Assembly: GCF_026712205.1 (NCBI RefSeq)
Contig: NZ_JAPPUW010000023.1
Location: forward strand, 1-64,000
DNA length: 64,000 bases
Reading direction: 5' to 3'
Source: Pelomonas aquatica
GTDB lineage: Bacteria > Pseudomonadota > Gammaproteobacteria > Burkholderiales > Burkholderiaceae_C
Below, piece by piece: positions 34,235-52,138 of the stretch. A model generated the notes under the pieces. That model had not been told where the DNA came from. It ran no database searches and was given only the letters and a program-made list of their open reading frames with translations. The position numbers were made by a program, and so were the translations under genes. How positions within the stretch are numbered: the first letter of the stretch is position 1; each line of letters begins with the position of its first letter.

Positions 34235-34323
34235 GCGGCTTCGAAATCGCTGCGACCATCCTCGTCGTCGGGCTGGTCGCTTATCTGTTCTGGGCGCTGC
34301 TGTTCCCGGAGGACCTGTCATGA
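34231..34323 (+). CDS. kdpF: K+-transporting ATPase subunit KdpF
   Basis: 30-residue single-helix peptide: [20 protein letters not shown] followed by FPEDLS. The YLxxALLxPE ending is characteristic of KdpF, the small lipid-like stabiliser of the KdpFABC potassium pump. ATGA overlaps at both ends link it to the 31-residue ORF and kdpA. Confidence 0.85.
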
Positions 34324-36116
34324 GCACGTCCGCCTGGATTCAGCTGATCGTCTTCCTCGTCGTCTTGTTCGCGCTGGCCTGGCCGCTGGCGCGCTGGATC
34401 CACGCGGCGATGGAAGGCCGCGTGGGCTGGCTGCGCCGCGTCGAGCGTGGCCTGCTGCGGCTGGCCGGCGTCGATGCCGATGCCGAGCAGGGCTGGCTGA
34501 GCTATGCGCTCGGCCTCTTGATCTTCAATGCGCTGGGCGTCTTCGCCGTCTACGCGCTGCAGCGCCTGCAGCAATGGCTGCCGCTGAACCCGCAGGGCCT
34601 GGCCGCCGTCACGCCCGACTCGGCCTTCAACACCGCCGTCAGCTTCGTGACCAACACCAACTGGCAGGGCTATGGCGGCGAGACGACGATGAGCTATCTG
34701 ACCCAGATGCTCGCGCTGACGGTGCAGAACTTCCTGTCCGCCGCCACCGGCATCGCCGTCGTCGTCGCGCTGGTGCGCGGCTTCGCCCGCCACAGCGGCA
34801 AGGCCATCGGCAATGTCTGGACCGACCTGACCCGCGCGACGCTGTGGGTGCTGCTGCCGCTGTCCCTGGTGTTCGCGCTGGTGCTGGCCGGCATGGGCGT
34901 CGTGCAGACGCTCAGGCCCTACCAGGACGTGACGACCCTCGAGGCGCAGAGCTGGCAGGAGCCCAAGGTCGGCGCCGACGGCCAGCCGCTCAAGGGCGCC
35001 GACGGCCAGCCCGTCATGGAAGACAAGAGCGGCCAGGGCCAGAGCATCGCCCTCGGCCCGGTGGCCTCGCAGCTCGCGATCAAGATGCTGGGCACCAACG
35101 GCGGCGGCTTCTTCAACGCGAACTCGGCGCATCCCTTCGAGAACCCCAGCGCGGCCACCAACGCGCTGCAGATGCTGTCCATCTTCCTGATCCCGGCGGC
35201 GCTGTGCTTCGTCATGGGCCGGCAGGTGGGCGACATGCGCCAGGGCTGGGCGCTGCTGGGCGCGATGACGGCGATGTTCGTCGTCGCGGTCGTCGTGGCC
35301 ACGGCGGCCGAACAGGCCGGCAACCCGCAGCTCGCCAAGCTCGGCGTCGACGCGACCCAGAGTATTGCGCAGTCCGGCGGCAACATGGAGGGCAAGGAAG
35401 TGCGCTTCGGCATCGAGGCCTCGTCGCTGTTCGCCGTCATCACGACCGCCGCCAGCTGCGGCGCCGTCAACGCGATGCACGACAGCTTCACGCCGCTGGG
35501 CGGCCTCGTGCCCCTGGTCATGATGCAGCTCGGCGAGGTCGTCTTCGGCGGCGTCGGCGCGGGCCTGTACGGCATGCTGGTGTTCGCCATCCTGGCCGTC
35601 TTCGTCGCCGGGCTGATGATCGGCCGCACGCCCGAATACCTCGGCAAGAAGATCGAGGCGCACGAGATGAAGATGGTGTCGCTGGCCATCCTGCTGACGC
35701 CGCTCGCCGTGCTCGTCGGCACGGCCATCGCCGTCGTCATGGAGCCGGGCAAGGCCGGCATCGCCGCGCCCGGCGCGCATGGCTTCAGCGAGGTGCTGTA
35801 TGCGTTCTCGTCCGCCGGCAACAACAACGGCAGCGCCTTCGCCGGCCTGTCGGCCAACACGCCCTTCTACAACCTGCTGCTGGGCCTGGTGATGTGGATC
35901 GGCCGCTTCGGCGTCATCGTGCCGGTGCTGGCCATGGCCGGCTCGCTGGCGGCCAAGAAGCGCCTCGCCCCCGGCGAGGGCACGCTGCCCACGCACGGCC
36001 CGCTGTTCGTCGTGCTGCTGATCGGCACCGTGCTGCTGGTCGGTCTTCTGAACTATGTGCCGGCGCTGGCCCTGGGGCCCGTCGTCGAGCATCTGACTCT
36101 GTGGGGTGCGCAATGA
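34320..36116 (+). CDS. kdpA: K+-transporting ATPase subunit A
   Basis: 598-residue potassium-binding channel subunit of the high-affinity Kdp pump. Filter-type segments are visible: [42 protein letters not shown]-like [14 protein letters not shown] and [13 protein letters not shown]. Selectivity is for K+ at micromolar levels. It is somewhat longer than the 557-residue E. coli protein, partly through a [16 protein letters not shown] insertion near residue 220 that contains a short duplicated unit (GADGQP twice). Confidence 0.97.
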
Positions 36117-38167
36117 AACGCGCCGGTTTCTCCCTGTTCGACCCCGCGCTGACCCGCGCCGCGCTGGCCGATTCCTTCCGCAAGCTGGACCCGCGCACGC
36201 AGTTGCGCAACCCGGTGATGTTCGTCGTCTACCTGGGCAGCCTGCTGACGACGGCCCTGTCCATCGCCCAACCGAATGGCTTCGTCATCGCGGTGACCGT
36301 GTGGCTGTGGTTCACCGTGCTGTTCGCCAACTTCGCCGAGGCACTGGCCGAGGGCCGAAGCAAGGCGCAGGCCGCGTCGCTGCGTGGCCTGAAGAAGGAG
36401 ACCTGGGCCAAGGTCCTCGCCGGCTGGAAGGCCGGCGCGCCACGCGAGTCGCTGAAGTGGACGCCGCGCGAGGCCAGCACGCTGCGCAAGGGCGAGCTGG
36501 TGTTCATCGAGACCGGCGACGTCGTGCCGGCCGATGCCGAGGTCGTCGACGGCGTCGCGTCCGTGGACGAGAGCGCCATCACCGGCGAATCGGCCCCCGT
36601 CATCCGCGAGAGCGGCGGCGACTTCTCGGCGCTGACCGGCGGCACGCGCGTGTTGTCCGACTGGGTCGTCGCCCGCGTGGCCGTCAACCCCGGCGAGACC
36701 TTCGTCGACCGCATGATCGCGATGGTCGAAGGCGCGCAGCGCAAGCGCACGCCCAACGAGATCGCGCTGACCATCCTGCTCGTCGCGCTGACGCTGGTCT
36801 TCCTGGGCGTGTGCGCCACGCTGCTGCCGTTCTCGCAGTTCAGCGTGGCGGTCGCGGGCGCCGGGCAGCCGGTTGGCATCGTCGTGCTCGTCGCACTGTT
36901 GGTCTGCCTGATCCCGACCACCATCGCCGGCTTGCTGTCGGCCGTGGGCGTGGCGGGCATGAGCCGCATGCTGCAGGCCAATGTCATCGCCACGTCGGGC
37001 CGCGCCGTCGAGGCCGCCGGCGACGTCGACGTGCTGCTGCTGGACAAGACCGGCACCATCACGCTGGGCAACCGCCAGGCCGATGCCTTCTGGCCGCTGG
37101 ACGGCGTCAGCGAGGCCCGGCTGGCCGACGCGGCGCGCCTGGCCTCGCTGGCCGATGAGACGCCCGAGGGCCGCAGCATCGTGGCCCTGGCCGACCGCAA
37201 GTTCGGCCCCGCTGCCCCGGCCTCCGGCCACGGCGAGTTCGTGCCGTTCACGGCGCAGACGCGCATGAGCGGCGTCGACCTCGGCGAGCGCCGCATCCGC
37301 AAGGGCGCCGGAAGCGCGGTGCGCACCCATGTCGAGGCCCTGGGTGGCCGCTGGCCCGCCAGCGTGCAGGCCACGGTGGACGAGGCCGCGCGCCGCGGCA
37401 GCACGCCGCTGGCGGTTGCCGACGGCGCGCGCATCCTCGGCGTCGTCGAACTGAAGGACATCGTCAAGCCCGGCATCAAGGAGCGCTTCGCGCAACTGCG
37501 CCGCATGGGCATCAAGACGGTCATGGTCACTGGCGACAACCGGCTGACGGCCGCAGCCATCGCGGCGGAGGCCGGTGTGGACGACTTCCTGGCCGAGGCC
37601 ACGCCCGAGGCCAAGCTGGCGCTGATCCGCGAGCAGCAGTCGCAGGGCAAGCTGGTCGCGATGACCGGTGACGGCACCAACGACGCGCCGGCCCTGGCCC
37701 AGGCCGACGTGGCTGTCGCGATGAACACCGGCACCCAGGCCGCCAAGGAGGCGGGCAACATGGTCGACCTCGACAGCAACCCGACCAAGCTCATCGAGGT
37801 CGTCGAGACCGGCAAGCAGATGCTGATGACGCGCGGGTCGCTGACAACCTTCTCCATCGCCAACGACCTGGCCAAGTATTTCGCCGTGCTGCCGGCGGCC
37901 TTCGTGTCGACCTACCCGCAGCTGTCGGCGCTGAACGTGATGCGCCTGGCCAGCCCCAACTCGGCCATCCTGAGCGCCGTCATCTTCAACGCGCTGATCA
38001 TCGTCGTGCTGATCCCGCTGGCCTTGAAGGGCGTGCGCTACCGCGCCATCGGCGCGGCCGCGCTGCTGCGCCGCAACCTGCTGGTCTACGGCCTGGGCGG
38101 AGTCATCGTGCCCTTCATCGGCATCAAGATCATCGACCTCATCCTCGTCGCGCTCGGCCTGGCTTGA
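36113..38167 (+). CDS. kdpB: K+-transporting ATPase subunit B
   Basis: 684-residue P-type ATPase catalytic subunit. The phosphorylation motif DKTGT begins at Asp311, TGES is the actuator loop, and [16 protein letters not shown] is the hinge. The start is ATG 36113 by the ATGA overlap with kdpA. Sequence motifs are complete, so the pump should be active. Downstream the usual kdpC is displaced by a porin-like gene. Confidence 0.97.
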
Positions 38168-38184
38168 ACCCACTTCCAAATTTC

Positions 38185-38910
38185 ATGAAAACACTCGTTT
38201 CCCTGCTGGCCCTCGCGGCCGCCATTCCCGCCTTTGCCGACGAACCCGCGCCCGCGGCAGATCCGCTGTCCTTCAATGTCGGCGTCGTCAGCGAGTACCG
38301 CTACCGCGGCATCTCGCAGAGCCGCCTGAGGCCCGCTCTGCAAGGCGGCATCGACTACGCCGGCGCGAACGGCTTCTATGTCGGCACCTGGGCCTCGACG
38401 ATCAAGTGGGTCAAGGACGCCGGTGGCGACGGCGACGTCGAGGTCGACCTGTACGGCGGCTACAGGACCGAGGTCGCCAAGGGCCTGACGCTGGACGTCG
38501 GCGTGCTGCAGTACGTCTACCCGAGCAACAAGCTCAACCCCAGCGCCAACACCTTCGAGCTCTACGGCGCGGTGAGCTTCGGCCCGGTGACGGCCAAGTA
38601 TTCGCACAGCACGACCAATTTGTTCGGCTACGCCGACAGCAGGAACAGCGGCTACCTCGACGTGACGGCCAACTTCGACATCGGCGACGGCTTCAGCCTG
38701 GCGCCGCACGTCGGCCACCAGACAGTCAGGCATCTCGCGGCCGCTTCCTACACCGACTACTCGCTGACGCTGGCCAAGGACTTCTCCGGCCTGGTACTGA
38801 GCGGATCCCTCGTCGGCACGGACGCCGACAAGACGACCTATGCCAGTCCCGTGAATGGAAAATTCATGGGCAAGACCGCGCTGGTCGTCGGCCTGAAGAA
38901 GACCTTCTGA
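38185..38910 (+). CDS. TorF-family putative porin between kdpB and kdpC
   Basis: 241-residue outer membrane beta-barrel protein. It has an N-terminal signal peptide ([15 protein letters not shown]), then [20 protein letters not shown], the signature of the TorF/gcw_chp putative porin family (TIGR02001-like), and a C-terminal barrel ending in Phe (GLKKTF). ATG 38185 is preferred over TTG 38164 because it starts the signal peptide. It lies 17 bases after kdpB and 14 before kdpC, so it is co-transcribed with the pump. A K+ or cation entry role across the outer membrane is plausible but unproven. Confidence 0.87.
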
Positions 38911-38924
38911 ACAGGAAACCCGTC

Positions 38925-39551
38925 ATGACCACCACGCTTTCCACCCCTCCCGCCGCCTCGGCGGCCACGGCCGAGGTGCCGCTGTGGCGGCCCGCGCTGA
39001 CGCTGTTCGTCGTGCTGAGCCTTGTCACCGGCCTGGCCTATCCGCTCGTCGTCACCGGCGTTGCGCAGGGGCTGTTCCCTGACGAGGCCAACGGCAGCCT
39101 CGTCGCGCGCGACGGCAAGCCCGTCGGCTCGACGCTGATCGGCCAGACCTTTGCCGACCCCGGCCACTTCTGGAGCCGCCCGTCGGCCACCGGCCCCATG
39201 CCCTACAACGCGGGCAATTCGTCCGGCTCCAACCTCGCGCCGACGGCGCCGGCCCTGGCGGATGCCGTCAAGGCGCGCATCCAGGCGCTGCGCGCGGCCG
39301 ATCCGGGCAACATGCTGCCCGTGCCGGTCGACCTCGTGACCACCTCGGCCAGCGGCCTGGACCCCCACATCAGCCGCGCCGCCGCCGACTACCAGCTGGC
39401 CCGCGTCGCGCGCGTGCGCGGCCTGCCGGTCGCGAAGCTGCGCGCCCTCGTCGAGCAGCACACCGAGGGCCGCTGGCTGGGCTTCATCGGCGAGCCGCGC
39501 GTCAATGTGCTGAGGCTTAATCTCGCACTTGATGCCCTGCCGCACGCCTGA
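38925..39551 (+). CDS. kdpC: K+-transporting ATPase subunit C
   Basis: 208-residue KdpC, the periplasm-facing chaperone-like subunit anchored by one N-terminal helix ([20 protein letters not shown]). [17 protein letters not shown] and SGSNLAPT are the family core, and [14 protein letters not shown] lies near the end. ATG 38925 has an AGGAAA site upstream. The stop shares a base with kdpD (TGATG). Confidence 0.95.
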
Positions 39552-42244
39552 TGACCGACGACCGCCCCGACCCTGATGCGCTGCTGGCCAAGGTGCAGCG
39601 CGACGAAGCCGCCGCCAAGCGCGGCCGGCTGAAGATCTTCTTCGGCGCCAATGCCGGCGTCGGCAAGACCTTCGCGATGCTGGCGGCCGCGCATGCCGCC
39701 AAGCTGCAGGGCCGGCCGGTGCGCATCGGCGTCGTCGAGACCCATGCACGTGCCGACACCGAGGCCATCGCCCGCGACCTGCCGCGCATCGCGCTGAGGG
39801 AGGTGGCCGGGCGCGGCCAGGCGCTGCGCGAATTCGACCTCGACGCGGCGCTGGCCTGGGGCGCGGCCGAACCCGGCGGCGTGTTGCTGCTGGACGAGCT
39901 GGCCCACAGCAACGCGCCCGGCTCGCGGCATGCCAAGCGCTGGCAGGACGCGCAGGAGCTGCGCGAGGCCGGCGTGGAGGTCTGGACGACGCTGAACGTG
40001 CAGCACCTGGAGAGCCTGAACGACGTCGTCGGCGGCATCACCGGCATCCGCGTCTGGGAGACGCTGCCCGACAAGGTCTTCGACGAGGCCGACGAGGTGG
40101 TCGTCGTCGACCTGCCGCCCGACGAGCTGCTGCAGCGGCTGAAAGAAGGCAAGGTCTATCTGCCGCAGCAGGCCGAGCGCGCGGCCAAGAACTTCTTCCG
40201 CAAGGGCAATCTGCTCGCGCTGCGCGAGCTGGCGCTGCGCCGCACGGCCGACCGCGTCGACGACCAGATGCAGGCCTACCGGCGCGAGCACACGCAGCTG
40301 GCGCAGGGGGCCGTCTGGCCCAACCGCGAATCGCTGCTGGCCTGCGTCGGCCCCGGCGGCAACAGCGACAAGGTCGTGCGCAGCGCGGCCCGCCTGGCCC
40401 AGCAGCTCGGGCTGGAGTGGCATGCCGTGCATGTGCAGACGGCAAGGGCGCTGGGCGACGCGGACCGCCAGCGCGTGCAGCGCACGCTGGAGCTGGCCAA
40501 GAGCCTGGGCGCGCGCACGGCCCTGCTGTCGGCGCCCGAGGTGGGGGCGGCGCTGGTGGGCTATGCGCGCGAGCACAACCTGGCCCGCCTTGTCGTCGGC
40601 CGGCGCGAGAGCGCCTGGCGCTGGCCGGGCCGGCTCTCGCTGGCCGAGGCGCTGAACCGCCTGGCCGACGACATGGACGTGCTGCAGGTCGCGCTGCCGA
40701 CCGTGGCGCGCGACGCAGAGCCGCAGCCGCGCATGCCGCGCGGCCTGCTGGCGCCGCACATGCTGCGCGGCTTCGCGGCGGCGCTGGCCGGCGTCGCGCT
40801 GACGACGGCCATCAACGGACTGCTGCTGGATCTCATCGCGGTGACCAATATCGCGATGCTCTACCTGCTCAACGTCGTCGGCGTGGCGCTGCGCTTCGGC
40901 CGCGCACCGGCGGCGCTGGCCGCGCTGGCGGGCGTCGCGGCCTTCGACTTCTTCTTCGTCGAGCCGCGCTGGTCCTTCGCCGTCAGTGACGCGCAATACC
41001 TCGTCACCTTCGCCGTGCTGCTGCTGGTGGGTCTGGTCATCGGCCAGCTCGCGGCCGGCCTGCAGGCCCAGGCCCGTGCGGCCCGGGAGCGCGAGCGCCG
41101 CGTGCGCGGGCTGTATGCGATGTCGCGCGACCTCGGCGCCGCCCTCGTGCCCGAGCAGGTGGCCGAGATCGGCACGCGCTTCCTGCGCGCCGAGTTCGGC
41201 GTCGCGTCGGCCGTGCTCGCGCCGCCGCTCGGCGCCACGCCCGGCCGCGAGGTGCTTTCCGTGCTGCCCGTCCAGGGCTCGGGCAGCGCCCAGCCCGACC
41301 TGGGCGTTGCGCAATGGGCCTTCGACCACGGCCAGCCGGCCGGGCAGGGCACCGACACGCTGCCCGCCAGCCCCTGCCTGATGCTGCCGCTGACGGCGCC
41401 GATGCGGCTGCGCGGCGTGCTCGCCGTCGACGGCCAGGGCCGGCGCTGGCTGCCCGACGAGCGCGAGCTGTTGGACACCTGTGCGGCGCTGCTGGCCATC
41501 TCGCTGGAGCGCATCCATTACATCGAGGTGGCGCAGCAGAGCACGCTGCAGATCGAGAGCGAGCGCCTGCGCAACTCGCTGCTGACGGCCGTCTCCCACG
41601 ACCTGCGCACGCCGCTGGCCGCCCTCGTGGGCCTGGCCGACGCGCTGAAGCTGACGCCGCTGAACCCGCCCCAGGCCGAGGTGGCCGACGCGGTGCGCCG
41701 CTCGGCGCTGCGCATGAGCGCGCTGGTGGGCAATCTGCTGGACATGGCGCGGCTGCAGTCCGGCGCGGTGCAGCTCAACCGCCACTGGCTGCCGCTGCAG
41801 GAGGTCGTCGGCAGCGCGCTCGCCGGCCTGGACGAAGTGCTGGCCGGCCGCGACGTGGCGGTGGACCTGGCGGCAGAGCTGCCCCTCGTCGAGCTGGACG
41901 CCGTGCTCATCGAGCGCGTGCTCGTCAACCTGCTGGAGAACGCGGCCAAGTACGCGTCCGGCCCCATCCGCGTCGCCGCGCGCACGGCGGGGCGGCAGGT
42001 CGAGATCGATGTCAGCGACAGCGGCCCGGGCTTTCCGGCGGGCCGCGAGGCCCAGCTCTTCGACAAGTTCGAGCGCGGCGACCGCGAGAGCGCCACGCCC
42101 GGCGTCGGCCTGGGCCTGGCCATCTGCAAGGCCATCGTCGAGGCGCATGGCGGGCGCATCAGCGCCCACAATGTGGCGACCGGCGGCGCCTGCGTTCGCA
42201 TCGAACTTCCTCTCGGTCAGCCGCCACAGGAGAAACCGGAGTGA
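39551..42244 (+). CDS. kdpD: Sensor histidine kinase KdpD
   Basis: 897-residue sensor of K+ limitation/turgor. The N-terminal KdpD domain has a Walker-type GANAGVGKT and the HSNAPGSRHAKRWQD region. A universal-stress-like domain follows, then four closely spaced helices (about residues 405-510, DUF4118), a GAF region, and the HisKA phosphoacceptor His683 in SHDLRTPLAAL. A HATPase with NLLENAAKYA and GVGLGLAICK completes the protein. It pairs with kdpE, whose GTG overlaps its stop. Confidence 0.97.
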   Translation: MTDDRPDPDALLAKVQRDEAAAKRGRLKIFFGANAGVGKTFAMLAAAHAAKLQGRPVRIGVVETHARADTEAIARDLPRIALREVAGRGQALREFDLDAALAWGAAEPGGVLLLDELAHSNAPGSRHAKRWQDAQELREAGVEVWTTLNVQHLESLNDVVGGITGIRVWETLPDKVFDEADEVVVVDLPPDELLQRLKEGKVYLPQQAERAAKNFFRKGNLLALRELALRRTADRVDDQMQAYRREHTQLAQGAVWPNRESLLACVGPGGNSDKVVRSAARLAQQLGLEWHAVHVQTARALGDADRQRVQRTLELAKSLGARTALLSAPEVGAALVGYAREHNLARLVVGRRESAWRWPGRLSLAEALNRLADDMDVLQVALPTVARDAEPQPRMPRGLLAPHMLRGFAAALAGVALTTAINGLLLDLIAVTNIAMLYLLNVVGVALRFGRAPAALAALAGVAAFDFFFVEPRWSFAVSDAQYLVTFAVLLLVGLVIGQLAAGLQAQARAARERERRVRGLYAMSRDLGAALVPEQVAEIGTRFLRAEFGVASAVLAPPLGATPGREVLSVLPVQGSGSAQPDLGVAQWAFDHGQPAGQGTDTLPASPCLMLPLTAPMRLRGVLAVDGQGRRWLPDERELLDTCAALLAISLERIHYIEVAQQSTLQIESERLRNSLLTAVSHDLRTPLAALVGLADALKLTPLNPPQAEVADAVRRSALRMSALVGNLLDMARLQSGAVQLNRHWLPLQEVVGSALAGLDEVLAGRDVAVDLAAELPLVELDAVLIERVLVNLLENAAKYASGPIRVAARTAGRQVEIDVSDSGPGFPAGREAQLFDKFERGDRESATPGVGLGLAICKAIVEAHGGRISAHNVATGGACVRIELPLGQPPQEKPE

Positions 42245-42939
42245 GCGCCGCACGCGTGTTGATGATCGAGGATGAGCCGGAGATCCGGCGCTTCGTGCGC
42301 ATGGCGCTGGAGAGCGAGGGCATCGAGGTCTTCGAGGCGGCCACGCTGGCCCGCGGCCTCATCGACGCGGCGACGCGCCGCCCCGAGCTGGTCGTGCTGG
42401 ACCTGGGCCTGCCCGACGGCGACGGCCTGGACTTCATCCGCGAGTTCCGCGGCTGGTCGCAGGCGCCGGTGCTGGTGCTGTCGGCCCGCGAGGGCGAGGA
42501 GCGCAAGGTGCAGGCCCTGGACGCCGGTGCCGACGACTACCTCGTCAAGCCCTTCGGCGTGGCCGAGCTGCTGGCTCGCGTGCGCGTGCAGCTGCGCCGC
42601 TTCACGAGGGGAGGTGGCGGCGGCGGCAACGATGCCGACCCCGTGCTGCGCTTCGGCGACATCGCCGTGGACCGCGCGCTGCGCACCGTCACGCGGGGCG
42701 GCGAGGAGCTGCGCCTGACGCCCATCGAGTACCGGCTGCTGCAGGAGCTGGCCGCCGCGCCGGGCCGCGTGCTGACCCACCAGCACCTGCTGAAGGCCGT
42801 CTGGGGCCCCGGCCATGCCGAGGACGTGCACTACGTCCGCGTGCACATGGCCAATCTGCGCAAGAAGCTGGAGGCCGACCCCAACCGGCCGCAGTGGCTG
42901 CTGACCGAGGCGGGCGTGGGCTACCGGCTCAAGACCTGA
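42241..42939 (+). CDS. kdpE: Response regulator KdpE
   Basis: 232-residue OmpR/PhoB-type regulator. The receiver carries acidic IEDEPE near the N-terminus, phosphoacceptor Asp54 in VLDLGLPDG and Lys in YLVKPFG. A Gly-rich linker (RGGGGGGN) leads to a winged-helix domain ending GVGYRLKT. Start GTG 42241 overlaps kdpD. It should activate the kdp promoter upstream of 34139; no operator could be identified by eye. Confidence 0.96.
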   Translation: MSAARVLMIEDEPEIRRFVRMALESEGIEVFEAATLARGLIDAATRRPELVVLDLGLPDGDGLDFIREFRGWSQAPVLVLSAREGEERKVQALDAGADDYLVKPFGVAELLARVRVQLRRFTRGGGGGGNDADPVLRFGDIAVDRALRTVTRGGEELRLTPIEYRLLQELAAAPGRVLTHQHLLKAVWGPGHAEDVHYVRVHMANLRKKLEADPNRPQWLLTEAGVGYRLKT

Positions 42940-43056: not shown

Positions 43057-43494
43057 ATGAAGCGTGTGTTGTTTCCTCTGCTGCTCGCCCTGTCGGCTTG
43101 CGCTGCCCCGCCCCTCGTGAAGGAGGTCGTCGTGAGCAAGGATGCTCCCGCACCGATCGGCCCCTATTCGCAGGGCGTGCGGGTGGGCAACTTGCTGTTC
43201 CTGTCCGGCCAGGCCGCCATCGACCCGAAGACCAACCAGCTGAGCACCGGGCCCATCGAGGAACAGACGGCGATGGCGCTCGACAACCTGAAGGCCGTGC
43301 TGGCCGCTAACCACATGACGATGGCGGACGTCGTGTCGACGACGGTCTACCTGAAGGACATCAACGACTTCGGCAAGATGAACGCCGTCTACGCGAAGTT
43401 CTTCCAGGACAAGCCGCCCGCCCGGGCCACGATCCAGGCCGGCCGGCTGCCCCGGGACGCACTCATCCAGATCTCGGCCATCGCGGCGCGCTGA
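43057..43494 (+). CDS. RidA-family protein with lipoprotein-type signal
   Basis: 145 residues from ATG 43057, which has a GGAGGT ribosome site. Residues 1-16 (MKRVLFPLLLALSAC) form a lipoprotein signal with lipobox LSAC, followed by a complete RidA/YjgF domain (APIGPYSQGVRVG, LSGQAAID, DNLKAVL). The conserved Arg is present in KPPARATIQ, but the Glu pair of canonical RidA (IEIEAIAVR) is replaced in IQISAIAAR. Classical 2-iminobutanoate deaminase activity is therefore uncertain. An in-frame GTG at 43132 with its own strong ribosome site would give a cytosolic 120-residue RidA. The neighbours give no functional hint. Confidence 0.83.
   Translation: MKRVLFPLLLALSACAAPPLVKEVVVSKDAPAPIGPYSQGVRVGNLLFLSGQAAIDPKTNQLSTGPIEEQTAMALDNLKAVLAANHMTMADVVSTTVYLKDINDFGKMNAVYAKFFQDKPPARATIQAGRLPRDALIQISAIAAR
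43120..43134 (+). promoter_or_regulatory. Internal ribosome binding site and GTG start in the RidA gene
   Basis: AAGGAGGT at 43120-43127 is a perfect Shine-Dalgarno, five bases (from its last G) before in-frame GTG 43132. Initiation here gives a RidA starting SKDAPAPIGPYSQ, the normal N-terminus of cytosolic RidA proteins, without the lipoprotein signal. Confidence 0.6.
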
Positions 43495-43870: not shown

Positions 43871-45700
43871 GTGGAAGCCAACACTGCTCTTGCCCCGGCC
43901 TTCGCCCGGGTGACCGAACCGGCGCAGGACGCCGCCGACCTGATCGTCGCTGCGCTGGCGGCCCTGGGCGTCGACTACGTCTTCGGCGTGCCCGGCGGCG
44001 CCGTCGAGCCGCTCTACAACGCGCTGGCGCGCAGCGCCCGCCGCGGCGGCCCGCAGGCCGTCGTGGCGCGCAACGAGCAGGGCGCGGCCTATATGGCCGA
44101 CGGCTATGCCCGCGAGACCGGGCGGCTGGGCGTGTGCATCGCGACCTCCGGGCCGGGCGCCACCAACCTCATCACCGGCGTGGCCTGCGCCTACGACAAC
44201 CACGTGCCGCTGCTGGTCATCACCGGCCAGCCGCCGATTCGCAACTTCGGCCGGGGCGCGCTGCAGGAGTCGAGCTGCACGGGCATCAACACCGTTGCGA
44301 TGTTCCGGCCCTGCACGCGCTACAACTCGCTGGTCTCGCATGCCGAGCAGCTGCCGACCAAGCTCTTCAATGCGCTGATGCAGGCCCAGCGCGCGCCCAG
44401 CGGCCCCAGCCACCTGTCCATCCCGGTGGACATCCTGCGCCAGCCGCTGGCCGACGGGCTGGAGGCGCCGGACTTCGCCGGCCTGCTGCGCCGCGCGCCG
44501 GCCCTCGTCGATCTGCCCGCGGTGCGCCAGCTCGCGCGGCTGCTGTTCTCGGCGCGCCAGCCGGTCTGGCTGATCGGCGACGGCTGCGGCGAGGCGGCCA
44601 ACGAGCTGATGCAGCTCGTGCGGCGCACCGAAGGCCGCTTCATCACGACGCCGGACGGCAAGGGCTTCATCAACCCGCGCCACCCGAGCTACCGGGGCGT
44701 GTTCGGCTTCGGCGGCCATGCGAGCGCGGCCGAGCTGCTGCAGGGCGAGCCCGACCTCGTCATCGCGCTGGGCACGGGCTTCGGCGAGTTCAGCAGCGGC
44801 GGCTGGTCCACCGCGCTGCTGAACAGCCGCCTCGTCCATGTCGACGACAGCGACGAGAACCTGATGCGCTCGCCGATGGCGCGGCTGCACGTGCGTGGCC
44901 ACATCAAGTCGGTCTGCGAGCAGCTGATCGCGCTGCTCGCGCCGTCGCACCAGGGGCAGGAGGCGCAGCTGCTGCCCTTCCTGCACCCGCAGATGGCGCG
45001 CCAGGCCTACGAGGCCATGGTCGACAGCCCGCAGGCCCTGCGCGGCGACAGCGCGCCCGTGAAGCCGCAGCGCCTCGTCGCCAGCCTGGGCGAGCGCTGC
45101 CCGCCGCAGACCCGCTTCGTCGCCGACGCCGGCAACAGCGCGGCCTGGGCCGTGCACTACCTCGCGCCGCACGACCAGCGCAGCGCGCGCATGCCGGGCG
45201 GTGCCTTCCTGCCCGCGGGCCAGGAGAGGCGCATGCGCAGCTCCAGTTGGCTGCGCGTGACGATGGACTTCGCGCCCATGGGCTGGGCCATCGGCTCGGC
45301 CGTCGGCATCGCGCTGGCCAACCGCCGCTGCCCGGTCGTCTGCCTGACCGGCGACGGCAGCTATCTGATGAACGGCCAGGAGATCACCGTCGCGGCCGAA
45401 CTGGGCCTGACCGTGCTCTATGTCGTGCTCAACGACGGCGCGCTGGGCATGGTCAAGCACGGCCAGCGCCTGGCGGGCGCCGAGCCCATCGGCTTCCAGC
45501 TGCCCCAGGTCGACTTCGCCGCGATGGCCGCGGCCATGGGCATCCCCGGCCATGTCGTCCGCTCGACGCAGGACCTGGATGCGCTGGATTTCGGCGCGCT
45601 GCTGTCGCGCCGCGGGCCGACGCTGCTGGACGTGCGCATCGACGGCGAGGAAGTGCCGCCGATGAACCTGCGCATGCGCACCCTCGGGACGGCCAGATGA
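43871..45700 (+). CDS. Acetolactate-synthase-like thiamine pyrophosphate enzyme
   Basis: 609-residue TPP-dependent enzyme with the full N/M/C domain order. The cofactor-activating Glu is E69 in ARNEQGAAYMADGYAR, SGPGATNLITG is typical of the acetolactate synthase branch, and the TPP/Mg motif GDGSYLMNGQE begins at residue 494 and ends VVLNDG. It should join or cleave 2-keto acids, but an acetolactate synthase role is not assured: no small regulatory subunit follows, and the partner genes are citrate-synthase-like. Start GTG 43871 is the best guess; GTG 43910 is possible and neither has a clear ribosome site. ATG 43682 would add an unnatural Pro/Arg-rich leader. Coupled by ATGA to the next gene. 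Confidence 0.82.
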   Translation: MEANTALAPAFARVTEPAQDAADLIVAALAALGVDYVFGVPGGAVEPLYNALARSARRGGPQAVVARNEQGAAYMADGYARETGRLGVCIATSGPGATNLITGVACAYDNHVPLLVITGQPPIRNFGRGALQESSCTGINTVAMFRPCTRYNSLVSHAEQLPTKLFNALMQAQRAPSGPSHLSIPVDILRQPLADGLEAPDFAGLLRRAPALVDLPAVRQLARLLFSARQPVWLIGDGCGEAANELMQLVRRTEGRFITTPDGKGFINPRHPSYRGVFGFGGHASAAELLQGEPDLVIALGTGFGEFSSGGWSTALLNSRLVHVDDSDENLMRSPMARLHVRGHIKSVCEQLIALLAPSHQGQEAQLLPFLHPQMARQAYEAMVDSPQALRGDSAPVKPQRLVASLGERCPPQTRFVADAGNSAAWAVHYLAPHDQRSARMPGGAFLPAGQERRMRSSSWLRVTMDFAPMGWAIGSAVGIALANRRCPVVCLTGDGSYLMNGQEITVAAELGLTVLYVVLNDGALGMVKHGQRLAGAEPIGFQLPQVDFAAMAAAMGIPGHVVRSTQDLDALDFGALLSRRGPTLLDVRIDGEEVPPMNLRMRTLGTAR

Positions 45701-46494
45701 CGCAGACCTTGACGACCCGCATCTGGCGCGAGCACGCCGAGCCCGACAACGCCTTCGCGGCGAGCGCGGCCTTCTGCCACGGCTACGACGTCTATGGCGA
45801 GATGCTGGGCCAGGCGCGCTGGGCCGAGATGCTCTTCCTGCTGTTCCGCGGCGAGGCGCCCTGGCCCGAGCAGGCCGAACTGCTCGAAGCCCTGGCCGTG
45901 GCCCTGGCCAATGCCGGCCCGCGCGACCCCGCCGTGCAGGCCGCGATGGCCAGCAGCACCGGCGGCGCGCCGGCCGCCGCCGCGCTGATGGCCGCGCTGG
46001 CCACGGGCGCCGGGCGCCTGGGCGGCGCGCGCGACGTGTTCGAAGCGATGACGGGCTGGGCCGAATGCGGCATGGAGCTGGCCGCCTGGCAGGCCAGGCT
46101 TGGCGAGGCCCGGCCCGAGCGGCTGGAGATCTGGCCCGCCGCCGAGCGCGCCGCGGGCTTCGAGCCGCACGGGCTGCGCACCGCGGGCATCGTGCTGCAG
46201 GCGCTGCAGCGGCTGTCGGCGCATGCCGAGGCGCAGCGCCTGCGCTGGCTGGCCGCGCACCGCGCCGAACTGGAGGCCGCGGCGGGCCTGCCGCTGGCCA
46301 TGACCAGCCTGGCGGCGGCCGTGCTCGCCGACCTCGGCTTCAGCCCCGAGCAGGGCGAGATGCTGCATCTGCTGCTGCGCCTGCCGGGGGCCGCCGCGCA
46401 TGCGCTGGAGCAGCGCGCGCTGGGCTACAAGCGCTTCCCCTTCCCGCCGGTCGAGTTGCAGGACGACCCGGCCCGATCCGAGGCGCGGGCATGA
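45697..46494 (+). CDS. Citrate synthase/citryl-CoA lyase-like protein A
   Basis: 265-residue protein with a citrate-synthase-fold outline: an N-terminal WAEMLFLLFRGEAPWPEQ helix, the SSTGGAPAAAALMAALATGAG core, and a C-terminal VLADLGFSPEQGEML. By eye, the HGG catalytic-His position reads LGGA and the catalytic-Asp region reads LAMTS instead of NVD, so normal condensation chemistry is doubtful. Codon use and length are healthy, so it is not an obvious pseudogene. It overlaps the TPP enzyme upstream and protein B downstream (ATGA both), implying a complex made in fixed ratio. Function unknown. Confidence 0.72.
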   Translation: MTQTLTTRIWREHAEPDNAFAASAAFCHGYDVYGEMLGQARWAEMLFLLFRGEAPWPEQAELLEALAVALANAGPRDPAVQAAMASSTGGAPAAAALMAALATGAGRLGGARDVFEAMTGWAECGMELAAWQARLGEARPERLEIWPAAERAAGFEPHGLRTAGIVLQALQRLSAHAEAQRLRWLAAHRAELEAAAGLPLAMTSLAAAVLADLGFSPEQGEMLHLLLRLPGAAAHALEQRALGYKRFPFPPVELQDDPARSEARA

Positions 46495-47315
46495 GAGGTC
46501 CGGACATGCTGGCCGCGCAGGCCGAGGTGCTGCGCACGCGCGTCGGCGCCTGCTGGCCGGGCACGCGCGCGGTCTTCCGCGGCCAGGACCTGCACCGCGA
46601 CCTGGACGGCATCGGCTGGATGGGCCTGTATGTGTTCGGCATCACCGGCCGGCGCTTCGCGGCCCACGAGCTGCGCGTGCTGGAAGGCATCTGGACGCTG
46701 ACCAGCTACCCCGACACGCGGCTGTGGAACAACCGCGTCGCGGCGCTGGCGGCGAACGCGCGCAGCGCTTCGGTGCTGGGCCTGTCGGCGGCCATCGCGG
46801 CGACCGAGGCCGGCGTGTTCGGCGGCGGGCCGGGGCTGCAGGCCATCGACTTCTTCCTGCGTGCCGGCGCGCAGCTGCGCGCGGGCGCGTCGGCCGAGGC
46901 CATCGTCGCGGCGGAGCTGCTGGCCGGCCGGCGCGTGCTCGGCTTCGGCCGCCCCATCCATGCGAACGACGAGCGGCTGCCGCCGCTGATGCGCCTGGTC
47001 GAGCGCGAGGGCCTGGACCAGGGCCGGCACTACCGCCTGGCCTTCGACGTCGAGCAGGCGCTGCTGCGCCGCAAGCCCTTCCTGAAGCTGAACTTCGCCG
47101 GCCTGACGGCGGCGCTGGCGGCCGACCTCGGCTTCAGTGCGCGGCAGTACCAGCTCTACAACATCCTGAAGACGCTGGCCGGCATGCCGCCCTGCATCGT
47201 CGAGGCCGCGGAGAAACCCGAGGGCAGCCTGATGCCCATGCCCTGCGAGAACGTGAGTTATGAGGGGCCGGCGCCCCGCAGTTGGTCGCAAAGGGCGGTG
47301 GTGCGCCACCCATAA
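46491..47315 (+). CDS. Citrate synthase-like protein B
   Basis: 274-residue protein resembling the citrate synthase superfamily: an N-terminal VFRGQDLHRDL segment, TSYPDTRLWNNRVAALA (matching the INASTFAAR region), GFGRPIHANDER (matching GFGHRVYK-DPR) and KLNFAGLTAALAADLGF (matching the NVDF-YSG helix). The three catalytic positions H/H/D appear as F (VFGGG), R and N by eye. It is the third gene of an overlapping three-gene unit and is followed 32 bases later by a TonB-dependent receptor. It is likely a partner subunit of protein A. Confidence 0.72.
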   Translation: MRGPDMLAAQAEVLRTRVGACWPGTRAVFRGQDLHRDLDGIGWMGLYVFGITGRRFAAHELRVLEGIWTLTSYPDTRLWNNRVAALAANARSASVLGLSAAIAATEAGVFGGGPGLQAIDFFLRAGAQLRAGASAEAIVAAELLAGRRVLGFGRPIHANDERLPPLMRLVEREGLDQGRHYRLAFDVEQALLRRKPFLKLNFAGLTAALAADLGFSARQYQLYNILKTLAGMPPCIVEAAEKPEGSLMPMPCENVSYEGPAPRSWSQRAVVRHP

Positions 47316-47347
47316 TCGCGGCCGGATTCCCTTTCCGCAGGTGAGCT

Positions 47348-49432
47348 ATGGCATGTCGTTCTGCTGGCCTCGTGGGCTTGTCCACCATCCTGGCCCTGGG
47401 CTCGGCTGGGGCTTGGGCGCAATCCGACGAGGACGAGCTGACGCTGGCCTACGGCGACCAGCGCTCCGTCAGCATCGCGGCCGGCAGCGTGCAGCCGCTG
47501 CGCCAGGCGCCCGCGGTGGCCAGCGTCATCACGGCCGAGGCCATCCAGGCGATGGGGGCGGCAGACCTGGACGAGGTGCTGGAGTCGGTCGCCGGCCTGC
47601 ATGTCGGGCGCGCGGCCAACCAGTACATGCCGCTCTACATCTTCCGCGGCATCTACAGCCAGTTCACGTCGCAGGTGCTGGTGCTGCAGAACGGCGTGCC
47701 GATGACGACCCTCTTCGTCGGCAACAAGGGCAATGTCTGGGCCGGCTATCCCGTCGAGCACATCGCGCGCATCGAGCTCATTCGCGGCCCGGGCTCGGCG
47801 CTCTACGGCGCCGACGCTTTCGCGGGCGTCATCAACATCATCACCAAGTCCTCGGCCGACACGCCGGGCACGCGCGTCGGCCTGCGCGGCGGTTCCTTCG
47901 GCAGCGCCGACGGCTGGGTGCTGCACGGCGGCAAGCTCGGGCCGCTGGACGTGTCGGCCTATCTGCGCGTGGGCAGCACCGACGGCGCGCGCAGCCTCAT
48001 CGACAAGGACGCCGCCCGCCCGGCCGTCACGCGCGCGCCGGGGCCGATCAACGTCGGCCACGACGCGGTCGACGGCAATCTGGAGGTGGGGCAGGGAGCC
48101 TGGCGCGGGCGCCTCGGCTACAAGCTGCGCAGCCATGTCGGCAGCGGCGCCGGCGTCGCGTCGGCGCTGGATCCGGTCGGCAAGGGCCGCAGCGAGCGCA
48201 TCAACGGCGACCTGTCGTGGACCGAGCCGCGGCTGGCCGCCGACTGGGGCGCCGGCCTGCAGGCCAGCGTGCTGCGCTATGTCGAGCAGGCCACGACCAA
48301 CTACGTGCTGCTGCCGGCCGGCACGACGCTGGGGCCGGGCAATGGCTTCACCGACGGCCTGATCGGCGGGCCCAACAAATGGGAGCGGCAGCTGCGCCTG
48401 TCGGGCTTCGCCACCTACACGGGCTTCAGCGGCCACAGCCTGCGCCTGGGCCTGGGCCATGACGACCTCGACCTTTACAAGACCACCGAATACAAGAACT
48501 TCAATCCCAACTACAGCCGCATCGGCACCGGCTCCTTCGCCGACGTGACCGACTTCTCCGACACGCTGCTGAAGTTCATGCTGCCGCAGCGCCGCCGCGT
48601 GGACTATGCCTATGCGCAGGACGAGTGGCGCTTCCACCCGGACTGGATCCTGACCGCCGGCGTGCGCCGTGACCACTACTCCGACTTCGGCTCGACGACC
48701 AACCCGCGCCTGGCCCTGGTCTGGAGCGCGGCCTACGACCTGACGGCCAAGCTGCTCTACGGCCAGGCCTTCCGGGCGCCGTCCTTCAACGAGCAGCACA
48801 GCATCAACAACCCGGTGCTGGGCGGCAACCCGGCCGTCAAGCCCGAGAAGATCCGCACCGCCGAGGCCGCGCTGGCCTGGGCACCGTCCGAAGGCCTGCA
48901 GCTCAACCTCAGCCTGTTCCGCTACGCGATGCGCGACATCATCCGCGGCGCGCCCAACCCCGCCGCGCCGCCGGCCAACCTGATCCAGAACCGCGGCGGC
49001 CAGGACGGCCACGGCGCCGAGCTGGAGGCCGTCTGGGACGCGTCGCGCAGCCTGCGCCTGACGGGCAATTACGCCTACCAGCGTTCCGTGGACGAGGCGA
49101 CGCGGCTGGACGCCGGCTACGCGCCGCACCAGCACGCCTATGTGCAGGCCGACTGGGCCGGGGTGCGCGGTGCCACGCTCAGCGCCCAAATCAACCATGT
49201 GGCCGGCCGCTGCCGGCCGGCCGGCGACGCGCGCCCGCCGGTCAGGGACTACACGACGCTGGACCTGTCGGCGCGGACCCGGCTCGGCGCGTCGCACTGG
49301 GAACTCGCCGCGATGCTGCGCAACGTCTTCAACGCCGACGCGCGCGAGCCCAGCCTGGCCGGCAGCGGCATCGTCAACGACCTGCCCGTGGTGCCGCGGG
49401 CCGCCTATGTGCAGGCCCAGTACCACTACTGA
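47348..49432 (+). CDS. TonB-dependent outer membrane receptor
   Basis: 694-residue receptor. The signal peptide ends ...GAWAQ, and a short TonB-box-like DELTLAYGD follows. The plug domain (VASVITAEAIQAMGA, IELIRGPGSALYGADAFAGVINIIT) precedes a 22-strand barrel ending in AQYHY, with terminal Tyr rather than Phe. The N-terminal pattern after the TonB box is one I associate with receptors encoded next to ABC_sub_bind proteins and sensor kinases, which matches the next two genes. Ligand unknown. A GCAGGTGAG ribosome site precedes ATG 47348. Confidence 0.92.
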   Translation: MACRSAGLVGLSTILALGSAGAWAQSDEDELTLAYGDQRSVSIAAGSVQPLRQAPAVASVITAEAIQAMGAADLDEVLESVAGLHVGRAANQYMPLYIFRGIYSQFTSQVLVLQNGVPMTTLFVGNKGNVWAGYPVEHIARIELIRGPGSALYGADAFAGVINIITKSSADTPGTRVGLRGGSFGSADGWVLHGGKLGPLDVSAYLRVGSTDGARSLIDKDAARPAVTRAPGPINVGHDAVDGNLEVGQGAWRGRLGYKLRSHVGSGAGVASALDPVGKGRSERINGDLSWTEPRLAADWGAGLQASVLRYVEQATTNYVLLPAGTTLGPGNGFTDGLIGGPNKWERQLRLSGFATYTGFSGHSLRLGLGHDDLDLYKTTEYKNFNPNYSRIGTGSFADVTDFSDTLLKFMLPQRRRVDYAYAQDEWRFHPDWILTAGVRRDHYSDFGSTTNPRLALVWSAAYDLTAKLLYGQAFRAPSFNEQHSINNPVLGGNPAVKPEKIRTAEAALAWAPSEGLQLNLSLFRYAMRDIIRGAPNPAAPPANLIQNRGGQDGHGAELEAVWDASRSLRLTGNYAYQRSVDEATRLDAGYAPHQHAYVQADWAGVRGATLSAQINHVAGRCRPAGDARPPVRDYTTLDLSARTRLGASHWELAAMLRNVFNADAREPSLAGSGIVNDLPVVPRAAYVQAQYHY

Positions 49433-49487
49433 TCCCTTTGCATAATGCCGCACCTCCATTCGGCCTCCGCCTCGCGGCATTTCCCAC

Positions 49488-50468
49488 TTGACTGAGCACG
49501 GCTGCCCCGCCCAAGCCACACGCCGCGCGCTGCTGCAGCAGGCCCTGGGCGGCGCCGTGTGGCTGGCGGGGAAGGGCGCGTTCGCGGCCGAGGGTGCGCG
49601 CCCGCTGGCCGTGGCCTACCCCGACCTGGGCGAACCGTTCCGGCAGGTCTTCGCCGCCATCATCGAAGGCATCGCGGACCGGGCCGGCGGCGCCGTCGCC
49701 AGCTTCGCGATGGGCGGCAATGCCAACCCGGCCCAGGTCGCCGACGACGTCCGCAGGCGCGATGCGCAGGCGCTGATCGGCCTGGGCCGCGGCGGCATGC
49801 GCGTGGCCGCCGCGCTGGCCGGCGAGCTGGCGGTGCTGGTCGGCTGCGTGGTGTCGGTGCAGGAGTCCGAGGCGCGCGCCTTCCCGGTCCACACGCTGGC
49901 ACCCGACCCGGCCCTGCTGCTGGCACGGCTGCGGCGGCTGCGGCCGGCCGCGCGCCGCGTGCACCTGGTCCACGACGCCAGGCTCAACGGCTGGCTGGCG
50001 CGGCTGGCGCGCGAGGCCGCGCGCGTGGAAGGCCTGGAGCTGCTGGCCCAGGAGGCCGCCGACCAGGCCGAGGCCCTGCGCGCCTACACCCTGCTGCTGG
50101 CCGGCGCCGACCCCGCGCGCGACGCGCTGTGGCTGCCGCAGGATCCGACCACCGTGGACGACAACGCCGTGCTGCCGCTGGTGCTGCGCGAGAGCTGGAA
50201 CCGCGGCATCACGGTGTTCTCCAGCCACCTGGCCCATGTGAAGCGCGGCGCGCTGTTCTCGCTCTACCCCGACAACCGCGAGCTCGGCCGCACGCTGGCC
50301 GCGTCGGCCCAGCGCCTGCTGGGCAGCCCAAAGGCTGCGGCCGGCGCGGCCGGGGTGCTGCCGTTGCGCCAGGCGCTGGCCGCCATCAACATCCGCACCG
50401 CCGCCCACCTCGGCATCGACGTGGCAGCGGTGCAGCCCGGGTTCGACCTCGTCTACCCCAACAACTGA
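49488..50468 (+). CDS. Periplasmic ABC_sub_bind-type ligand-binding protein
   Basis: 326 residues. The N-terminus has a TAT-like twin arginine (QATRRALLQQALGGAVWLAG) and an AFAAEGA cleavage region. The rest is a two-lobed periplasmic binding protein of the ABC_sub_bind (PF04392-like) type with GLGRGGMRVAAAL and DPTTVDDNAVL. No ABC permease or ATPase is adjacent; the sensor kinase starts two bases later, so it more likely feeds a signal to that kinase. Start TTG 49488 is used because no ATG or GTG precedes the twin arginine in frame. Confidence 0.82.
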   Translation: MTEHGCPAQATRRALLQQALGGAVWLAGKGAFAAEGARPLAVAYPDLGEPFRQVFAAIIEGIADRAGGAVASFAMGGNANPAQVADDVRRRDAQALIGLGRGGMRVAAALAGELAVLVGCVVSVQESEARAFPVHTLAPDPALLLARLRRLRPAARRVHLVHDARLNGWLARLAREAARVEGLELLAQEAADQAEALRAYTLLLAGADPARDALWLPQDPTTVDDNAVLPLVLRESWNRGITVFSSHLAHVKRGALFSLYPDNRELGRTLAASAQRLLGSPKAAAGAAGVLPLRQALAAINIRTAAHLGIDVAAVQPGFDLVYPNN

Positions 50469-50470
50469 AG

Positions 50471-52138
<1,668 letters not shown>

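Follow-up and report, generated by a model that had tools for sequence, protein, structure and literature searches.

The window analysed here, a stretch of 64,000 nucleotides from contig NZ_JAPPUW010000023.1 of Pelomonas aquatica, carries a run of six genes in which a thiamine pyrophosphate (TPP)-dependent enzyme and two proteins of the citrate synthase fold, hereafter A and B, are followed by a TonB-dependent receptor, a periplasmic binding protein (PBP) and a membrane histidine kinase (HK):

43871..45700, plus strand, 609 aa: TPP-dependent acetolactate-synthase-like enzyme (Pfam PF02776, PF00205 and PF02775)
45697..46494, plus strand, 265 aa: protein A, citryl-CoA lyase fold without conservation of the catalytic residues
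46491..47315, plus strand, 274 aa: protein B, citryl-CoA lyase fold, with Tyr (Phe)-Arg and no Asp replacing His-His-Asp
47348..49432, plus strand, 694 aa: TonB-dependent outer-membrane receptor (PF00593, PF07715)
49488..50468, plus strand, 326 aa, TTG start uncertain: PBP of the ABC_sub_bind type (PF04392 in relatives)
50471..52138, plus strand, 555 aa: membrane HK with HAMP, HisKA and HATPase domains (PF00672, PF00512, PF02518)

The first three genes (43871-47315) are joined by ATGA overlaps, in agreement with the first-pass annotation, which had singled them out as a coupled triplet. The receptor, PBP and HK genes follow on the same strand after gaps of 32, 55 and 2 bases, respectively, and we infer from the shared strand and short spacing that all six belong to one operon spanning 43871-52138. 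A search for co-occurrence showed that the triplet, far from being absent elsewhere, recurs widely; the recurring unit, however, is not the triplet itself but the set of six genes continuing to 52138.

Protein B, whose closest named relative is that of Pelomonas sp. Root1444, was found in 13 of 20 genomes of the genus, 18 of 399 of the order, 41 of 369 of the class and 10 of 398 of the phylum, where each count includes the window’s own genome and one class genome recurs in the phylum count; in a set of 60 relatives that includes the window’s own genome, the 15 genomes with A are also the 15 with B, and the two genes adjoin in each. For comparison of gene content we used 88 loci (the window, L017-L040 and L102-L164, with L016 dropped as a duplicate of L032), which come from related species and are non-independent, with some genomes possibly conspecific and some contigs ending within the locus. 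Profile searches at E 1e-10 recover A in 83 of the 88 when each frame is assigned to its best family (L110 and L129 hold A in a frame shared with B or the TPP gene, which brings the residue census to 85 rows), the TPP gene in 78, the receptor in 74, the HK in 68 (58 at E 1e-40) and the PBP in 61. All six genes, each within 10 kb of B, are present in 57 loci, five of which drop out at E 1e-40 to leave 52, and in 50 of the 62 loci with at least 7 kb on both sides of B. The alignments drew on 76 of 88 B, 73 of 85 A, 40 of 61 PBP and 50 of 78 TPP rows.

The association also holds at the level of whole genomes. Among 303 class genomes, with the TPP enzyme found in 38 and the PBP in 37, B was scored from the 31 positives (up to G708) of the 369-genome class search that are presumably members of the 303: B and TPP occur together in 30 genomes, B alone in 1, TPP alone in 8 and neither in 264 (Fisher 6e-33), and the corresponding numbers for B and PBP are 27, 4, 10 and 262 (Fisher 3e-26). 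The 8 genomes with TPP and the 10 with PBP but no B, five of them in both lists, argue against strict linkage; a wider profile picked up pieces of B in G467, G485 and G497 and matched G645 weakly, and some of the B-less genomes may be receiver-only or decayed. In G467, G485, G645, G663 and G717 the PBP is present with no TPP match at the thresholds used, and these strains may act as receivers only. Plasmid spread was ruled out, with no A or B match in 72,556 plasmid records. Two loci have unusual layouts: on G568 contig C1 (L131) B is apparently split by a large rearrangement, with residues 2-56 near the TPP gene and residues 48-267 on the same contig some 0.5 Mb from the TPP-side part, and L154 holds two TPP genes and two receptors in a single locus, with a reductase beside B.

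Within the genus, the six genes fall into two groups with separate histories. Mantel tests on pairwise identities across the 11 genus loci with all six genes yield r values of 0.91 for A-B, 0.91 for A-receptor and 0.93 for B-receptor (p 0.0002), and of 0.74, 0.81 and 0.85 for TPP-PBP, TPP-HK and PBP-HK, respectively, while the nine cross-group pairs range from 0.02 to 0.14, none of them significant, including 0.08 and 0.14 for A and B against the TPP enzyme. The available genus pairs have median identities of 0.89 for TPP, 0.80 for HK and 0.75 for PBP, against 0.61 for A, 0.60 for the receptor and 0.53 for B. The pair L028-L036 illustrates the pattern, with TPP and HK 0.99 identical, B 0.64 and the receptor 0.61: DNA identity, about 0.94 along the TPP gene up to a drop at the 3' end, remains low through A, B and a large part of the receptor and returns to at least 0.93 over most of PBP and HK, whereas L036 and L038, which share a cassette type, stay mostly level at 0.82-0.96 and show a single gap, located between the receptor and PBP genes. 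In the genus, A, B and the receptor thus form a swappable cassette, independent of TPP, PBP and HK. Over all 57 complete loci, the two groups are less sharply set apart, with simple correlations inside them as follows (A-B 0.89, A-receptor 0.81, B-receptor 0.80; TPP-PBP 0.92, TPP-HK 0.86, PBP-HK 0.88), and the pair L108-L115 is partly genus-like, with identities of 0.86 for TPP, 0.49 for B, 0.52 for the receptor, 0.64 for PBP and 0.67 for HK.

In structure searches, both A and B match citryl-CoA lyase 6hxp in fold and length; for A the AlphaFold model has a predicted local distance difference test score of 94 and 6hxp is the best Foldseek match. The best NCBIfam matches of both proteins are named citryl-CoA lyase and lie far under their cut-offs (A, which matches PRK06224 below cut-off, 63.4 bits against 261; B, 57.1 against 245), and in Pfam A reaches 25.7 for PF00285 (cut-off 27) and B has no match at all. 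The fold is present, whereas the catalytic His/His/Asp set is absent. With B placed by profile alignment to the genome’s own citrate synthase, F110 aligns with the His of AHGG, R154 with the His of GFGHR and A203 with the Asp of NVD; A, placed via an A-B profile alignment (its direct alignment to citrate synthase spans the N-terminal part only), has L109 at the HGG position and T202 at the Asp position. These placements bear out the reading by eye in the first-pass annotation of L in A and F in B for the HGG His, of an altered GFGHR in B and of a lost NVD Asp in A; its reading of NVD-F in B as ‘KLN-F’ can be made more precise, in that the Asn is kept and the Asp replaced by A203. Across the 88 B rows, the first His position reads Y in 84 and F in 4, the second is R in all 88, and the Asp position reads A in 59, G in 13, N in 6, S in 3, T in 3, V in 3 and L in 1, but never D; N201 is kept in 87 and the Arg of D-E/P-R (R162) in 88. 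In the 85 A rows the HGG position is variable, with His in 18, and the Asp position is never D. Profile alignment restored an intact triad in neither protein.

A and B nevertheless look intact, as had been noted at first pass: both genes appear whole and under purifying selection, with dN/dS (the ratio of nonsynonymous to synonymous substitution rates) of 0.22 each, against 0.24 for TPP, in the one pair compared (window versus L032), and we reject decaying duplicates on this ground. Because they lack the canonical residues, look intact and under purifying selection, and recur so widely as part of the triplet, a new role, as suggested for them at first pass, is likely. A defence function was rejected as well: TPP, A, B and PBP gave no match in PADLOC at E 0.001.

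The TPP enzyme carries all three TPP domains in a Pfam scan, and its catalytic Glu (E69) and GDG...ND motif are invariant in 50 aligned rows including the window’s own, features that it shares with acetolactate synthase and other TPP carboligases and with BbmA (8x3x) and CsmA (8x3z), its closest solved structures; on the biology of the latter two, nothing was found in a literature search outside which most subscription papers lay. The enzyme differs from acetolactate synthase in scoring 295.6 bits against TIGR00118, below the cut-off of 538.35, and it stays under the cut-off for all 25 NCBIfam families listed among the 60 matched. It also differs in having no adjoining small subunit: as stated at first pass, no such gene lies within the operon, and that of this genome sits on another contig.

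In the second half of the operon, the receptor shows similarity to those for siderophores, heme and cobalamin, and PF04392 is detected in 39 of 40 aligned PBPs, with the window’s own protein below threshold. The HK has hydrophobic segments at 47-65 and 212-230 with a stretch between them, and over its kinase part matches the LuxQ and TorS models below cut-off. A single open frame carries the HK profile together with GGDEF and EAL in 20 loci; L017, L026, L040 and L139 encode a protein with HisKA, HATPase, Hpt, receiver, GGDEF and EAL domains, and L039, L105 and L149 one with HAMP, GGDEF and EAL in which no kinase domain was found. GGDEF or EAL domains, indicative of cyclic dimeric GMP (c-di-GMP) signalling, occur in 43 of the 88 fetched loci.

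A P450, a reductase, or a sulfotransferase accompanied by adenosine phosphosulfate (APS) kinase is found in addition in some loci, and in the genus the P450 and reductase genes follow the cassette type. A P450 stands after B in L027, L028, L030 and L033, whose B proteins are at least 0.83 identical, and a short-chain reductase stands between TPP and A in L031 and L035, whose B proteins are 0.85 identical; in L034 it is a P450 that stands between TPP and A, and its B is nearer to those of L031 and L035 (0.74 and 0.73). The L025 reductase is unrelated to the others (0.24-0.31 identity), so that nine reductase loci over 1e-60 are in fact eight. The sulfotransferase, a single family (at least 0.62 identical), is found in 7 loci, with APS kinase alongside in 6; together the two spend ATP to add sulfate, which fits synthesis, and the reductases and P450s would suit a keto or hydroxy scaffold. 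In L118 and L119, the genes that separate TPP from A encode IS200-like transposases (in L118 the match lies under the Pfam cut-off) and a gene inside the L146 module is an ISL3 transposase, and these were not counted. In L149 an asparagine synthase-like gene (L149:10271-12208) adjoins B as a possible further tailoring step.

The neighbourhood yielded 60 recurrent gene groups (in at least 3 loci, within 9 kb), of which representatives of 21, plus an M28-family peptidase, were scanned; many of the remaining groups resemble, by eye, antisense shadows cast by known genes. The scan of 21 out of the 60 groups revealed no permease, no widely shared inner-membrane importer, and no non-ribosomal peptide synthetase (NRPS), siderophore synthetase, catechol or other chelator synthesis gene; other scanned groups include chemotaxis, c-di-GMP and housekeeping genes. 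The lack of a shared importer among the scanned groups fits periplasmic sensing, albeit as weak evidence of absence. CheR, CheW and methyl-accepting chemotaxis genes recur upstream of TPP near L124, L125, L126, L128 and L136, perhaps as mere synteny of related genomes. In the window, a kdp potassium operon with KdpD/KdpE regulators (34320-42939) and a RidA-like gene (43057-43494), both named by eye, lie upstream of the operon, a context that L029 shares at about 90% DNA identity; a different gene family, the L028 member of which is the M28 peptidase, precedes TPP in L027, L028, L030, L031, L032, L036, L037 and L038 and is not found in the window.

We propose, with a probability of roughly 0.55, that the six genes constitute an operon for a self-made small molecule that would be made, taken back up and sensed. 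The TPP enzyme and A/B probably make this molecule. Because A and B co-vary with the receptor in the genus, it is likely that they, rather than the TPP enzyme, set its variable part; a return of the molecule to the periplasm by the receptor appears just as likely. That PBP and HK sense it is fairly likely, and a signalling function is slightly favoured over a primarily metal-carrying one. The common step would fall to the cytoplasmic TPP enzyme, which would join or decarboxylate a 2-oxo acid. A and B, mutually homologous and probably forming a heteromer, would then take the intermediate of this step and a second substrate in a citryl-CoA lyase pocket rebuilt with Tyr and Arg for His-His-Asp, in which one carboxylate-binding Arg of citrate synthase is retained, and their reaction would fix the variable part of the product. 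Where present, a P450, a short-chain reductase or a sulfotransferase dependent on phosphoadenosine phosphosulfate could decorate the product, which would exit the cell and be brought back into the periplasm, in the right variant, by the matched TonB-dependent receptor. PBP and HK would turn the returned product into a regulatory, often c-di-GMP, response, with the sensor elsewhere taking the form of a fused HK-REC-Hpt-REC-GGDEF-EAL protein or a sensor-GGDEF-EAL protein that lacks the kinase, and the whole would work as a diffusible signal or a recognised public good.

Several observations weigh against this proposal. Its weak point is that neither PBP nor HK tracks A, B or the receptor within the genus (r 0.02-0.06); they would then sense a constant part of the molecule, or something else, and in the former case the receptor would be left as the selective step. 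Over the 57 complete loci, cross-group correlations rise to 0.57-0.82, so that the cassette looks looser outside the genus, and because the highest of them is receptor-PBP (0.82), the receptor appears intermediate between the two groups. The pairs L158-L159 and L124-L127 differ mainly in B, with receptors 0.94 and 0.77 identical, and L139-L140 mainly in TPP. One or more of the six genes are missing from 31 of the 88 loci, which contig ends explain only in part, since 12 of the 62 well-flanked loci are incomplete as well (L021, L023, L025, L128, L131, L137, L141, L148, L151, L155, L163 and L164). No GGDEF or EAL domain was found in the fetched stretch of the window or of 11 of the other 12 genus loci, no exporter was identified, and an importer-type ABC ATPase makes up one of the scanned neighbour groups (5 loci).

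The main rival, which we nonetheless consider unlikely, is a metallophore or scavenging system, whose product would bind a metal or nutrient, whose receptor would retrieve the loaded form and whose PBP and HK would report its return. The likeness of the receptor to siderophore, heme and cobalamin receptors speaks for it, as does the joint diversification of synthesis genes and receptor, which is known from siderophore systems, those of the pyoverdine type among them. From such systems the operon differs in that NRPS, siderophore synthetase and catechol genes are missing from the 21 of 60 neighbour groups scanned, as is an inner-membrane importer shared by many loci (the ABC ATPase being confined to its 5 loci), and in its HK/c-di-GMP output, with c-di-GMP domains in the sensor frame of 20 loci; a TPP/citrate-synthase-like core would also, in our judgement, be an unusual source of a chelator. 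More doubtful still is a catabolic module, in which the receptor would import an environmental compound, PBP and HK would sense it and TPP, A and B would degrade it, the cassettes differing by substrate. A receptor and a sensor beside degradation genes are a common arrangement, the fold of A and B is that of a lyase, and lyases are known among TPP enzymes; against this stand the sulfotransferase with APS kinase in 6 loci, which fits synthesis, the lack of a widely shared periplasm-to-cytoplasm transporter among the scanned neighbour groups, and the constancy of the TPP gene while the cassette changes in the genus.

Two further alternatives concern A and B themselves. They could be non-catalytic partners of the TPP enzyme, acting as a scaffold, in intermediate capture or as a small-subunit substitute, a reading in line with the first-pass ideas of capture of the TPP-bound intermediate or a CoA-transfer scaffold, and one that draws on the loss of all three catalytic residues in B and the fixation of none in A, and on the translational coupling of both genes to TPP. 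It too seems improbable to us, as the strict retention of R154, N201 and R162 in B across deep divergence looks like an active site, and A and B change in the genus in step with the receptor and without a matching change in TPP. An ordinary citryl-CoA lyase, citrate synthase or methylcitrate synthase with drifted motifs would account for the shared fold and for the names of the best NCBIfam matches; it is effectively ruled out, or at best extremely improbable, given the scores far under the cut-offs, the absence of the Asp from 88 B and 85 A rows, the Arg for the second His in 88 of 88 B and the one normal citrate synthase encoded elsewhere in the genome. The resemblance to 6hxp, the Hydrogenobacter thermophilus citryl-CoA lyase that corresponds to the lyase module of ATP citrate lyase, stops at fold and length: here two different paralogues without His/His/Asp lie side by side, in linkage with a TPP enzyme and a sensor.

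Molecules that cells make themselves and pair with a matched receptor and a periplasmic sensor are already known. LuxP-LuxQ and NspS-MbaA pair a binding protein with a membrane kinase or a GGDEF-EAL protein, and our loci likewise place a PBP gene beside a membrane HK or a sensor-GGDEF-EAL protein, with the differences that the PBP is of the PF04392 type and that synthesis genes and a TonB-dependent receptor are linked to it. Candidate synthesis genes and a sensor are linked (all six in 57 of 88 loci, with co-occurrence across the 303 genomes), which would resemble quorum sensing if, as proposed, they make and sense a single molecule; as in siderophore systems, a TonB-dependent receptor is present. 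For the core of a TPP enzyme with a citrate-synthase-fold pair devoid of the catalytic residues, and for the six-gene build as a whole, we found no description in a literature search of incomplete coverage, in keeping with the first-pass statement that no pathway of this build was known.

Tentatively, these loci may represent a widespread and so far undescribed bacterial signal class, the synthesis of which would rest on a TPP enzyme together with a citrate-synthase-fold pair of reinvented catalysis. Its chemotypes would arise via exchangeable A-B-(tailoring)-receptor cassettes set between a synthesis gene and a sensor that both stay constant, and a strain would recognise the chemotype of its own kind at the outer membrane and respond via c-di-GMP. 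If the proposed operon function is correct, about 1 in 9 of the sampled class genomes (41 of 369, own included) would carry an unrecognised metabolite system with its receptor and sensor, and a new chemical family would be opened to isolation, together with new chemistry in the citrate synthase fold. The operon would furthermore offer a naturally occurring example of synthesis and recognition genes inherited together, in which a swap of A, B and the receptor is predicted to swap both the product and self-recognition.

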